Assembly (NCBI RefSeq): GCF_000243155.2
Contig: NC_018017.1
Span: forward strand, 3,224,001-3,288,000
DNA: 64,000 bases
Reading direction: 5' to 3'
From: Desulfitobacterium dehalogenans ATCC 51507
Lineage (GTDB): Bacteria; Bacillota; Desulfitobacteriia; Desulfitobacteriales; Desulfitobacteriaceae
Shown: one piece after another, positions 11,390 through 57,688 of the stretch
How positions within the stretch are numbered: the stretch's first letter is position 1
How the letters are laid out: each line of letters starts with the position of its first letter
Program-made: the position numbers and the translations under genes
The notes under the pieces: model-generated
Seen by the model: the letters and a program-made list of their open reading frames with translations, nothing else
Database searches by the model: none
Told to the model about the DNA's origin: nothing

Positions 11390-11731
11390 CTAGCGACGGT
11401 CGCGAATCCGCGCAGCTTTACCTGAAAGTCCACGTAGGTAGTAGAGTTTGGCACGGCGTACAACACCACGGCGTACCACCTCAATACGGTCAATTCGAGG
11501 AGAATGCAGCGGGAAAGACCGCTCTACTCCTACACCATAGGTTACCCGACGCACTGTGAAAGACCGACGAAGACCGCCGCCTTTCATCTTGATAACAACC
11601 CCTTCAAAAGCCTGGATACGTTCCCGAGAACCCTCGACAACTTTTACATGGACACGTACAGTATCTCCAGGACGGAAGGCAGGAAGATCTTTTTTCATTT
11701 GCTCTTCTTCAATCATGCGAATAAAATCCAT
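11390..11731 (-). CDS. rplS: 50S ribosomal protein L19
   Basis: Ribosomal protein at the 30S-50S interface, 113 residues. Conserved features are [20 protein letters not shown], the basic segment [20 protein letters not shown] and the C-terminal [16 protein letters not shown]. The start is the ATG at 11731, 8 bases after AAGGGGGG; an upstream extension of eight codons reads through that site. In this genome it is cut off from trmD by the SPOUT gene and a 306-bp palindromic repeat. Confidence 0.97.
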
Positions 11732-11891
11732 TATTGATTCCCCCCTTCCTTGCATAGATGTTCATACACTGAGCCGATGTTTAAGCACCATGCTTTTCAC
11801 AGTGAGCGGACCATCCGTTTTACCGTGATATTGTATCATAAACAATAAGCTGTATGCAACTTTAAAAATCACAAAATATTATTTGGGTCGA

Positions 11892-12197
11892 GTAGCTTTA
11901 CGCACAACACTCACTCCATAGCTCCGGGGCTGACCAACTTGCTCTCTTAACAGCATCTGCGGCGGATAAGTGTTCTTTGAGGAGTGCCGCCTTGAGCGAA
12001 ACTGTCCACTGGACACTTTCGTCGCCAAACCCCGCTGTTTTCTGCATGTGAACCGTGGCTGCGCTACGTTAAGAAAGCCTCGTTGACCGGACCGCCCCTC
12101 CGCTTAAAGAAAGCTGGCTTATGGTGAGTGAAGCGAATCAGAAGCCTTAGCTGCCTTATACACAGTGAAATCCGTTCGCTTTTGTGCGTAAAGCTAC
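11892..12197 (-). repeat. Solo palindromic module A (copy A1)
   Basis: A 306-bp element bounded by perfect 16-bp inverted repeats, GTAGCTTTACGCACAA at 11892-11907 and its complement at 12182-12197. The right 115 bp are nearly identical, in reverse complement, to 14575-14700, so this is a second copy in opposite orientation. The middle differs from other copies: it carries a hairpin GCGAAACTGTCC-ACTGGACA-CTTTCG and a second GC-rich hairpin. It fills the rplS to methyltransferase gap (11732-12242); nothing else coding was seen there. Confidence 0.85.
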
Positions 12198-12242
12198 GCT
12201 AGTAGGTCATTAGATCACTATTTGAGGGCTTTTAAAATTCCC

Positions 12243-12800
12243 TTAATGTCCCCTTAAACGATCGAGAATAATAGCTGCTGCTGAACGAACGGAAAGATGA
12301 TTCCATTCACCAGGCCCATAGATAGGTTCAAGGATGATATCACAATCCTCCATAACTTCCCTGAGCAGCCCCCAGCCTGTGCCGAAGAGCAACAGCAAAG
12401 GTTCCTCCCCATTCTCGATCTTATCCCGTACGGCAGCATAACCTAAGGTATTGGGATATCGCCGGGCATCCGTGGCTATTTTCAAAGGCTTTCTCCCTTG
12501 TTCCTTAAAAATCTCCTCTTCAACCTCGGCAAGTTCACTAGCCAATTTAACCCGGGCAAAGGCTTCCTGGCGATTGGGATTATATTCTGCACCAAAGCCC
12601 TCCTGCCAATACCCCATAATCCGCTGAGCTAAGGCTCTTTGAGCTTCAGCGGGATGGACAATATAGTAGCGCTTCACTCCGTATGTAGTGGCACTGCGAG
12701 CGATGTCATGAATATCCAAATTGGTGATGGAGGTCGCGATGGTTTCCATGTTTTTATTATAGACTGGAGCATGAAGCAATGCGACGTACAAATCGCCCAT
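12243..12800 (-). CDS. Predicted SPOUT-type RNA methyltransferase (PF09936-like)
   Basis: Predicted S-adenosylmethionine-dependent RNA methyltransferase of the small TM1570-like family, 185 residues. The N-terminus MGDLYVALLHAPVYNKN, the early NLDIHDIARSATTYGVKRYY, and the C-terminal LLLFGTGWGLL followed by IYGPGEWNHLSVRSAAAII resemble the trefoil-knot SAM site of SPOUT enzymes. It sits 12 bases after trmD, itself a SPOUT enzyme, and before rplS, an arrangement common in Clostridia. The RNA target is not known from sequence. Ribosome site: AAGGAGGAACC before ATG. Confidence 0.75.
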   Translation of the reverse strand: MGDLYVALLHAPVYNKNMETIATSITNLDIHDIARSATTYGVKRYYIVHPAEAQRALAQRIMGYWQEGFGAEYNPNRQEAFARVKLASELAEVEEEIFKEQGRKPLKIATDARRYPNTLGYAAVRDKIENGEEPLLLLFGTGWGLLREVMEDCDIILEPIYGPGEWNHLSVRSAAAIILDRLRGH

Positions 12801-14209: not shown

Positions 14210-14819
14210 TCCAGGATTTTGCTTTCGGCGTTCACTCCATAAGCTGCGCGGAGCAATCTAATCGCTCAAGACCTCCGCTCCGTCGGGTGCCCGCCCAAAT
14301 CGCTCCTGCTCAATGGGCGGTTGGAAACGTCCTGTTTCCAACCCGACTCCGCTGCTGTCTTTTCGCGAAGATTGCTTTCCTGCTCGCTTAAATCCGTTCT
14401 CTGCCTGAAAGCAAAATCCTTGAGCTGCTTCTTAGGTTTGAGCGGGCGGGGTGTTGTGAATTTTGGCTTGGGCCGCTTGTTCAGCCTTGCCGACGCCGCT
14501 TGCGGCATGGTCGGCGACCCGCTCGGGAAAGGCTTAGGTGAAGCCCGAAAGAAGACTAAGCAAGACCCGCGAGTGTAGCTTTAGGCACAAAAGGGAACGG
14601 ATTTCACTGTGTATAAGGCAGCTAAGGCTTCTGATTCGCTTCACTCACCATAAGCCAAGCTTTCTTTAAGCGGAGGGGCGGCCAGGTGAACGAGGCTTTC
14701 TTAACATAGCTCAGCCACTGGTTCACTTCAGGTATTACCCAGAGGTTTGGCTGAGCTGTTAAGAAAGCGAGTGAACCAGCCCCGGAGCTATGAAGTGACC
14801 GTTGTGCGTAAAGCTACAC
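14210..14819 (+). repeat. Composite palindromic repeat, copy 1 (modules B and A)
   Basis: A roughly 610-bp composite. Module B (14214-14419) has ends GGATTTTGCTTTC and its complement, with inner hairpins such as GGTTGGAAAC-GTCCT-GTTTCCAACC (14319-14343) and CCGCCCA/TGGGCGG. A GC-rich spacer with a GCCGACGCCG-type hairpin follows, then module A (14575-14817) with GTAGCTTTA[G/C]GCACAA ends and an inner inverted repeat around GCTTTCTTAAC. The same B-spacer-A order is found inverted at 48326-48817. It lies between khpA and rimM; no gene was found in 14162-14906. Confidence 0.85.
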
Positions 14820-25544: not shown

Positions 25545-25877
25545 CCTCCTCACCTCCAAGGCATTCCCTTTCTAATACTATATGTCTGGGATAGTTTGCC
25601 TTATGACCTTGTTCTCCAGTGCAAACCACTCAAGCTTTCTCCCCTCTTATGTTGTCAACTTCAACCTCTTTTTCTAATAAAAATGGAACATAAAAACACA
25701 GTCCGGTTGGTAGTCCGGATGTACCGAATTGACCGGTGTCGTATCCTTCCCCCCTCGGGATGTCCATTGTTCCCCGCCATATGGCATACGAACAACAAGA
25801 CGGCTTCTGGCATCTGCCAGTCGCCGTCTGCATAAAGGTGGATATCATGCTGTCAACAGTATCAAACAACCGACATG
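25545..25877. other. Gap between the DtxR gene and the truncated Fe-S gene, no feature seen
   Basis: About 330 bases without a convincing gene. A 79-codon minus-strand frame (25630-25869) has no recognisable motif and no ribosome site. If the upstream Fe-S gene was once longer, its catalytic continuation is not detectable here. Confidence 0.4.
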
Positions 25878-48325: not shown

Positions 48326-48817
48326 CGTAGCTTTTCGCACATCGTTCACTCAAACACTCCAGGGCTGGTGCACTCGCTTTCTTAACAGCTGCGCCAAACC
48401 TCCGGGTAATACCTGATGTTAACCGGTGGCTCCGCTACGTTAAGAAAGCCTCGTTCATCCAGCCGCCCCTCCGTGTAAATCGTTCACTATTGTGCGAAAA
48501 GCTACGCTGTCGGGTCTTTAGTGTCTAACAGAAGAGCTCAGACTCTCTCCCGCCCGAAAAGCCGCTAACCTAATAAGACAGACCCAAGGATTTTGCTTTA
48601 AGGCAGAGAACGAATTTAAGCGAGCAGGTAAGCAATCTTCGCGAAAAGACTGCAGCGGAGTCGGGTTGGAAACAGGACGTTTCCAACCGCCCATTGAGAA
48701 CAAGTGCGAAAGCAGTGCTTTCGAGGAGCGATTTGGGCGGCGTCCCGACGGAGCGGAGGTCTTGAGCGATTAGATTGCTCCGCGCGGCTTATGGAGTGAA
48801 CGCCGAAAGCAAAATCC
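48326..48817 (-). repeat. Composite palindromic repeat, copy 2 (modules A and B, inverted)
   Basis: Inverted counterpart of the element at 14210-14819. Module A (48326-48506) has ends CGTAGCTTTTCGCAC and complement, is shorter than the other A copies (it lacks the 70-bp block seen at 11892 and 14575) but keeps the GCTTTCTTAACAGC/GTTAAGAAAGC inner arms. Module B (48588-48817) has GGATTTTGCTTT ends and the hairpin GGTTGGAAAC-AGGAC-GTTTCCAACC (48664-48688), and carries an extra hairpin cassette at 48699-48723. Located between fabK and fabD; no gene was found in 48245-48868. Confidence 0.85.
48699..48723 (+). repeat. Hairpin cassette inside module B
   Basis: AACAAGTG followed by stem CGAAAG/CTTTCG with loop CAGTG. 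Absent from the other B copy at 14214-14419. Occurs with a compensated base pair at 52601-52625 and with a longer stem at 57120-57150. Confidence 0.7.
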
Positions 48818-48868
48818 TGGAGAATCCCGGAGAATCCTAGAGATTCCGACTCAAACGCCCAGATAGAA

Positions 48869-54667: not shown

Positions 54668-54989
54668 TATTGATTACCCCCTATTTTTCTTTTCCACCCA
54701 TTTTTTCTTTTGTCTCTTTTCTTTGTCTTTTTTCGCCCTAACTCACATCGTCTGAAAAGAGCTTTTACTCTAGGCAAAGTTCTTCTTTTTCATTTTACCC
54801 AGAAAGAGACTTTTTCTTTTGTTTTTTTAAAAAATAATACAAATTCGTGTGAATCTCTCTTTATATCATCACACGATAAAGGAAACTTGCATCTGGTGGA
54901 GTTTCAATTCCATCTGATGCCTAGTTGACTTATCCACGTAGTGGAAAACACCCTAATAAGTTTAACATAATTCGCTTGCATTTCAATAG
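54668..54989. other. Intergenic stretch between ackA and the patatin gene, no gene seen
   Basis: About 320 AT-rich bases that must hold the ackA promoter. No convincing dyad, terminator or small gene was seen by eye. Confidence 0.35.
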
Positions 54990-57150: not shown

Positions 57151-57154
57151 GGAG

Positions 57155-57688
57155 TCAAGACTCCACCTGAGCTGAATTTCCTTTATCGTTCGGCTTTTCC
57201 CTTTGATCACGTTTGGCCAGATTCCGCAGTTCCTCCCGATTGCGGCGGACTGCCTGCAGCGTCTCAGCCACATTTTGTTCCACTTGGAGGAGCATTTCAT
57301 CGGTGTACTGAATGGCACCTAATTTAACTTCTTTAGCATAAACCTGGGCTTGACGGGCAATATCTTCAGCGTAAACTTGAGCTTGCTTCACAACCTCGCT
57401 CTCTTCAGCCATTTTCTCTATGTAAGTTTTTCCACGTTCCAGCAGTCGCTCTGCTTCCGATTGAGCCTCATCTATGATCTTTTGTCTTTCCGACAATACC
57501 CATTTGGCGTTCTGAAGCTCCTCAGGAAGAGCGGCTCTTACCCGATCAATCAAATCAAAAACCACATTATCATCTACCAATACTTTTCCGGTCATCGGGA
57601 TCTTCGTTCCCCGATCCACGATTTCTTCTAATTCATCAAGTAATGCTAATACATCATTTTCCAAGGCTATCCTCTCCAATCTGTTCAT
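57155..57688 (-). CDS. Coiled-coil protein of unknown function next to rsmD
   Basis: Soluble, highly charged protein of 177 residues. After a short N-terminal region (DVLALLDELEEIVDRGTKIP, then TGKVLVDDNVVFDLIDRVRA) it becomes one long helix with repeated AQVYAEDIARQAQVYAKEVK, resembling ATP synthase b-subunit or DivIVA-type coiled coils; such proteins are often mis-annotated as ATPases. The ATG overlaps the rsmD stop (ATGA), so expression is coupled. No catalytic motif is visible. Function not known. Confidence 0.7.
   Translation of the reverse strand: MNRLERIALENDVLALLDELEEIVDRGTKIPMTGKVLVDDNVVFDLIDRVRAALPEELQNAKWVLSERQKIIDEAQSEAERLLERGKTYIEKMAEESEVVKQAQVYAEDIARQAQVYAKEVKLGAIQYTDEMLLQVEQNVAETLQAVRRNREELRNLAKRDQREKPNDKGNSAQVES

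Follow-up and report, generated by a model that had tools for sequence, protein, structure and literature searches.

An intergenic singlet in Desulfitobacterium dehalogenans likely belongs to a cassette-bearing mobile repeat family comparable to REPINs and BOX elements

The 306-bp segment at 11892-12197 of the window, a 64,000-nucleotide stretch of Desulfitobacterium dehalogenans ATCC 51507 (NC_018017.1, positions 3,224,001 to 3,288,000), appears on balance to be a half-element, or singlet, of a non-autonomous family of intergenic mobile repeats. We refer to it as the solo A module, and read it as a singlet because most A modules (84/100) are followed by a partner module, B. For the family as a whole, the account towards which we lean likens it to REPINs and BOX elements, as a mobile repeat that is non-autonomous and whose copies are remixed by recombining with one another.

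The solo A module was delimited by its paired ends and by alignment; of its two strands, the minus strand folds better. Its 16-bp terminal arms, GTAGCTTTACGCACAA at 11892-11907 and TTGTGCGTAAAGCTAC at 12182-12197 (both on the plus strand), pair perfectly with one another, in keeping with the conserved ends claimed by an earlier sequence-only reading of this DNA, and the GTAG with which the module begins pairs with a CTAC inside the 16-bp arm. The module is composed of a 178-nt core, a 69-nt cassette termed c2 (11954-12022, minus strand), an apical loop region of the Q allele (CCAAACCCCGCTGTTTTCTGCATGTGAACC; 12023-12060, minus strand) and a 63-nt cassette termed c4 (12105-12167, minus strand). 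A conserved GGGTC stands immediately outside the left arm (11885-11889, plus strand), and the right arm is followed by GCTAGTAGGTCATTAG (12198-12213, plus strand), a worn copy of a conserved flank with the consensus GCTTGCGGGTCTTTTTCAG. The GGTC-N-TTAG sequence previously reported to recur outside the ends is therefore a real flank, although it is better described as the worn form of a conserved GCTTGCGGGTCTTTTTCAGC. No open reading frame of at least 120 aa overlaps 11892-12197. The site is flanked by rplS (11390-11755) and by an RNA methyltransferase gene (12243-12800), after which come trmD and rimM; both flanking genes are encoded on the minus strand, the same strand on which the solo A module folds better.

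Two further A modules lie in the window. The second (14575-14817, 243 bp) is inverted, folds better on the plus strand, comprises the core, loop P and c4, and forms part of an A-linker-B doublet; the third (48327-48505, 179 bp, better-folding strand minus) consists of the core and loop P with no cassette. With the 14.6-kb copy the solo A module shares contiguous stretches of 94 nt at 94% identity and 61 nt at 92%, which agrees with the shared block described from the sequence. The middle of the element had been described as replaced by a hairpin, CGAAACTGTCC/GGACACTTTCG, and a second, GC-rich hairpin. Both hairpins are present, the second as a GGCGG/CCGCC stem, and both fall within the single 69-nt c2; the idea of replacement fails, as c2 is an insertion relative to the 178-nt core, and the loop is of a different allele, Q standing for P. 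The claim that these hairpins are missing elsewhere is true of the second and third modules of the window and not of the whole genome, with c2 labelled in 10 of the 66 A modules of D. dehalogenans and in 10 of the 34 fetched from the sister genome G001. Similarly, the third copy does lack the 70-bp block, as had been noted, the block itself being the optional second cassette c4.

Roughly 78 copies of the A module are dispersed through the genome. With up to two mismatches allowed, the end motif matches 78 forward and 79 reverse sites in the 4,321,753-bp single-contig genome, compared with 3 forward and 0 reverse sites genome-wide for the reversed-pattern control, which rules out chance. We took 79 stretches, each surrounding a copy of A or B. 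Pairing of the ends yielded 67 elements, of which 65 are longer than 100 bp. The two excluded, at 53-54 bp, are miniature copies (L046:1157-1209 and L070:485-538) that hold little beyond the two end arms and are apparently internal deletions. Conservation extends past the 16-bp ends into the flanks, with GGGTC on both sides and AAAAAG/CTTTTT tracts. The A modules fall into length classes of 177-180, 235-238, 241-245, 301-308, 366-367 and 433-434 bp, with single modules at 264 and 407. In the alignment, most of these classes are accounted for by the optional cassettes c1, c2 and c4 at fixed positions, c1 being about 58 nt long and close to the left arm. The apical loop exists as two alleles, P and Q, which are different in sequence and similar in length. 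Counts over 100 A modules combine 66 from D. dehalogenans with 34 fetched from G001, and retain the 10 modules, across the two genomes, whose length does not fit their cassette label.

The sequence-only reading had taken no account of the doublet partnership of A. The order of the doublet is A, a linker, then the second palindromic module, B, which in each of the 84 cases is no more than 600 bp away on the right-hand side of A and is never found to the left (55/66 A modules in D. dehalogenans and 29/34 fetched from G001 have B to the right). In the window, the B module of the 14.6-kb doublet lies at 14210-14422 on the minus strand, opposite to its A, and that of the third element at 48585-48821 on the plus strand. 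When run with filters off, the A covariance model finds B at 8 of 16 loci, always on the strand opposite A. These hits score 15-37 bits, and the antisense strand of A itself scores 11-43 bits; because the two ranges overlap, a common descent of A and B in D. dehalogenans is suggested at most. The A-B doublet is thereby of the REPIN type in comprising two related palindromic units in inverted arrangement, and A and B form an outward-facing pair of large rod-like hairpin units around a variable linker. This geometry is repeated in relatives: at 8 of 32 loci from other genomes there are two neighbouring hits on opposite strands, in all eight with the left on the minus and the right on the plus strand. 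The weaker unit of these outward pairs scores 28.6 to 90.5 bits, both units reach at least 37 bits in 7 of the 8, and four of the pairs come from one genome, Desulfosporosinus hippei. One other locus, L247, has two A-model hits on the same strand. B modules themselves fall into length classes of about 212-215, 236-239, 275-278 and 295-301 (e.g. L031, L040, L053), so B probably has optional cassettes of its own. Separately, in one 8-kb stretch of a genome from another genus, G007, A together with its flank is paired in tandem at two separate places (L219:4674-5202 and L219:11972-12489), at a spacing of about 350 bp.

Either strand of a palindrome is able to fold, but a pair that forms a G.T wobble on one of them reads as an A.C mismatch on its complement. 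Among pairs common to both strand folds in the 56 core-length modules of the 100, A in its plus orientation shows 114 A.C against 16 G.T cells, in 28 against 5 columns (sign test 7e-5). The unpaired consensus columns of A on the plus strand are C25 T23 A9 G3, making them purine-rich on the minus strand; those of B on the plus strand are A29 G25 T11 C1. Folding energy is lower on the minus strand in 57/57 A modules without a labelled cassette, and on the plus strand in 83/84 B modules, a set restricted to B modules with A on their left. A and B therefore favour opposite strands for folding, each running outward from the linker. The strand asymmetry of wobble is weaker for B than for A: G.T and A.C are level at 78 cells each, and the columns (27 versus 15; sign test 0.09) are not decisive. 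In an alignment of 43 distinct matches, mostly from other genera, wobble exceeds A.C by 66 to 21 and by 28 to 6 columns, in an alignment that was itself fitted to the structure and has as one row an antisense match of an A module. Because A and B copies share ancestry, these strand counts are not independent events. Covariation in the A module is strong. Across 39 core A modules (36 of the 56 core modules and three relatives), 98.4% of cells are paired compared with 94.2% in shuffles, and two-sided changes are seen at 24 of 49 pairs compared with 5.7 in the shuffles, which ignore relatedness; a control in which partners were slid along the structure gave 32-40% paired.

Comparison with related genomes reveals that occupancy of these sites varies. 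Between aligned flanks, the solo A site (11876-12242) measures 367 bp here, 25 bp in G001 and 44 bp in G002, for which the alignment ends slightly earlier; the site in G003 is also short. The neighbourhood alongside is 90% identical to G001 across 11.3 kb. The presence/absence check proposed on the sequence alone thus finds the site filled in D. dehalogenans, empty in its congeners G001 and G002 and likewise short in a third, G003. G001 does have the A-B copy at 14.2-14.8 kb, which G002 and G003 lack. The two filled/empty sites compared bear no readable target duplication, and their flanks have diverged.

More widely within the order, the A covariance model has matches in 54 of 73 genomes, belonging to 16 of 22 genera, with 0 to at least 37 matches per genome, and the matches listed are mostly full length. 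A paired-end pattern scan of the whole genome-contig collection returned nothing; the exact apical-loop pattern then returned 24 genome-contig stretches, 23 from Desulfosporosinus and one from a Peptococcaceae metagenome bin, in scans that may leave out records very near D. dehalogenans. The exact loop pattern has no match in viral contigs, and with no blastn match in the plasmid and phage collections either, we rejected a plasmid, phage or viral source. A known Rfam family was likewise rejected, no match to the element exceeding a family cut-off: at the gathering score there is no A match in the window or on six loci of other genomes, and a permissive search of four loci gave three weak, sub-threshold hits, of which two (MAT2A_C) lie within A. 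The only Rfam match in the window is an azaaromatic (yjdF) riboswitch at 25680-25783 on the plus strand (80.3 bits against a cut-off of 45). Elsewhere in the window, a 39-nt imperfect inverted repeat (74%; 54873-54911 and 57151-57189) flanks about 2.2 kb. In G006, from another genus, a c2-like hairpin (CGAAACACTTCACTGGAGTGTTTCG) lies in the right flank of locus L153, outside the A module, so the c2 hairpin may occur in other contexts. Among the open-access papers listed in literature searches, some of which covered the top of longer lists and which took in few subscription papers, none describes the repeat in Desulfitobacterium or Desulfosporosinus in its title or the opening of its abstract.

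The strong covariation and the one-strand wobble asymmetry, together with mostly full-length matches (among those listed) across so much of the order, could also be expected if A and B were multicopy structured non-coding RNAs with a cellular role, running outward from a promoter in the linker and kept for their function. That 23 of the 34 modules fetched from G001 sit at orthologous sites holding modules in both genomes points the same way. We nevertheless consider this unlikely. A scan of the solo A region (11740-12260), with the doublet linkers lying outside its range, detected no sigma-70-like promoter and no terminator-like site. By crude ORF calls, the 66 A modules lie between tandem (48), convergent (14) or divergent (4) genes, and the doublets between tandem genes are oriented evenly, 20 in each direction; this even split also led us to reject cis-regulation in one orientation. 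Moreover, the sites are empty in some relatives, and the number of matches per genome runs from none to over 30. The preferred reading, of a mobile repeat whose copies recombine, is taken up below at the loci that the two genomes share.

At the 23 shared loci (L099/L125 was excluded, no A having been found in L125), the cassette label agrees in four cases, where random pairing expects 5.06. Loop alleles differ at 13 of the loci, c1 at 7, c2 at 6 and c4 at 7. Collecting the A modules had been proposed earlier as a way of telling swapping from drift, and these discrete pieces, which differ at shared sites, join the discrete length classes and fixed-position cassettes in upholding the suggestion of cassette-like evolution. 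We ranked the true ortholog among 29 candidates for the 21 of the 23 pairs with B in both genomes. For A the median rank is 13, for B it is 12 (chance 15) and for the linker 2 (21 loci); the 60 bp just outside have medians of 3 and 1, and distant flanks of 1. Thirteen loci have a linker in first or second rank, and at 11 of these the cassette label differs. With linker and flanks behaving as orthologs and A and B ranking near chance, the sites seem to be shared by descent while A and B can hardly be traced by site. Base identity is only slightly higher between orthologs, at 86.3%, than for other cross-genome pairs, at 84.4%. Linkage outside the loop is low even at 1-5 nt (r2 0.125 and 0.194), and the strongest values sit mostly at neighbouring or paired positions. 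Saturation alone could explain this base-level scrambling, and since the point-mutation data could fit it too, the evidence for exchange has to come from the cassettes and the loop alleles. These pieces, each a whole unit of conserved sequence, point to copying between loci.

The c4 cassette is unevenly distributed between the genomes compared — 22 of 66 A modules in D. dehalogenans, none of the 34 fetched from G001 and, in a search of the whole genome, none elsewhere in G001 — and has two matches in G002, at 93% and 85%. All 22 of its matches in D. dehalogenans fall at A loci. The 20 cleanly cut copies are 97.5% identical, compared with about 84% for A cores of the same genome, and within 10 nt of c4 the flanks of carriers are as varied as those of random samples, which fits insertion as an exact unit. 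These features would suit an explanation in which c1, c2 and c4 are each mobile, inserting at a fixed position of the scaffold independently of recombination between A modules, but we regard this as improbable. The conservation of c4 across species, seen in its G002 matches, means that its uniformity need not imply recent spread; c4 may be old and constrained. Furthermore, the P and Q loops are replaced rather than inserted, and the association in D. dehalogenans of c1 with c2 (p 0.004) and of c2 with c4 (p 0.0001) is what recombination of linked pieces leads one to expect. As to what c4 is, two proposals were set aside: a self-standing hairpin is unsupported on the favoured strand (z -0.20), and for a missing partner strand of the core arm the signal is too weak to claim, the c4/core-arm duplex averaging -9.7 in 21 of 22 carriers against -7.3 (sd 2.7) for shuffled arms.

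We searched for enzymes that might move the repeat. The five matches to Y1 transposase in the genus have no A in the stretches of approximately 3.2-3.5 kb fetched around each, and BLAST with 40 of the 84 doublets gave no hit around them; G002, which is 99% complete, has A copies and no Y1 match. On the basis of these fetched stretches, a REPIN driven by a RAYT or Y1 enzyme was rejected. Spread driven by a reverse transcriptase was rejected in the same manner, A being absent from the fetched stretches of approximately 3.2-3.5 kb beside all six RVT_1 matches in the genus. One Y1 (IS200-type) transposase gene, at G000:C1:3415479-3415831, is seemingly split into two overlapping frames. With its perfect 16-bp terminal inverted repeats and no coding capacity (no ORF of at least 120 aa), A is MITE-like, and its high copy number and presence or absence among relatives would also suit a MITE of the ordinary kind, mobilized by a DDE transposase through recognition of those repeats. 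We hold this to be very unlikely: conservation reaches past the 16-bp ends, with GGGTC on either side and AAAAAG tracts, no target duplication could be read at the filled/empty sites, whose flanks have diverged, the usual partner B has a fixed orientation, and the wobble asymmetry indicates that one strand matters. It is highly improbable that there is no exchange at all and that copies drift around a constrained consensus, losing cassettes by precise deletion site by site; near-chance base-level ranks are what saturation alone would give, but c4 occurs in 22/66 modules here against 0/34 fetched from G001, and deletion cannot convert a P loop into a Q, so the differences at 13 of 23 shared loci speak against it.

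Among known systems, REPINs and BIMEs offer a close parallel. The available text of PMC3116915 describes them as dispersed intergenic doublets of inverted palindromes with a less conserved spacer, also found as singlets, which fold as single-stranded DNA or mRNA and show compensatory changes. The present family shares the inverted palindromic doublets, the singlets, the variable spacer and the compensatory changes. In contrast to REPINs and BIMEs, its units measure at least 178 nt rather than being REP-sized and there are optional internal cassettes, and none of the Y1/RAYT-type genes found in the genus adjoins A in the fetched stretches. The BOX element of Streptococcus (boxA-boxB-boxC) has, in the portion of PMC3049150 consulted, end modules, internal modules that can be missing or occur more than once, and a predicted RNA fold; it is intergenic, overrepresented between convergent genes and without a clear insertion footprint. 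The resemblance is one of architecture, conserved end modules with optional internal ones. BOX belongs to another lineage, whereas the optional pieces of A occupy several separate positions inside one rod, the rods form an outward-facing pair, and their content varies between species at the same locus. The repeats bcr1-bcr18 of the Bacillus cereus group are, according to the sections of PMC3446304 available, Firmicute intergenic repeats, several of them MITE-like and some with conserved secondary structure, about half of whose copies are transcribed. Doublet architecture and in-place exchange of cassettes are absent from those sections, and the likeness here is by description, not sequence. 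Finally, GTAG-tagged REPs resemble A in that A begins with GTAG and in the G-T pairing reported within their stems; the accessible part of that report (PMC3733652) gives an unpaired tag and stems of 5-13 bp, whereas in A the GTAG is paired within a 16-bp arm and the core unit is about 178 nt. A word search of the same text returned neither 'Firmicutes' nor 'Desulfito'.

Returning to the mobile repeat that recombines between copies, we suggest that the cassette and loop differences at shared sites would arise by copying between dispersed copies. The route may be ectopic homologous recombination over short tracts, possibly begun by breaks at the palindromes; in E. coli, long palindromes provoke breaks that initiate recombination. 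New copies would arise by transposition aided by some enzyme, and selection may preserve folding as a single strand, whether as RNA or as single-stranded DNA. If the RNA methyltransferase gene and rplS were co-transcribed, their mRNA would bear a large rod between them. A bolder interpretation, possible but in our judgement on the unlikely side, would treat the family as a dispersed element of a new class, belonging to the Desulfitobacterium/Desulfosporosinus order. Its outward pair of rods, large and structured and made of RNA or single-stranded DNA, would have sub-domains that form a shared genomic pool, with a dedicated, structure-guided process copying them between sites, such that loci would be stable while their folded domains were continually swapped.

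These data point to a large family of structured repeats that is spread across the order and for which Rfam 15 gives no match above cut-off. Its anatomy is clear, comprising two rods on opposite strands, an outward doublet and optional cassettes. In the comparison with a sister genome, what happens to a locus can be told apart from what happens to the sequence that it holds, so that remixing of bacterial repeats within a genome can be measured directly. Should the folded strand prove to be RNA, it would be possible to test what it does or how it contributes to mobility, and the position of the solo A module between the RNA methyltransferase gene and rplS, near trmD and rimM, makes any effect on their expression directly testable.
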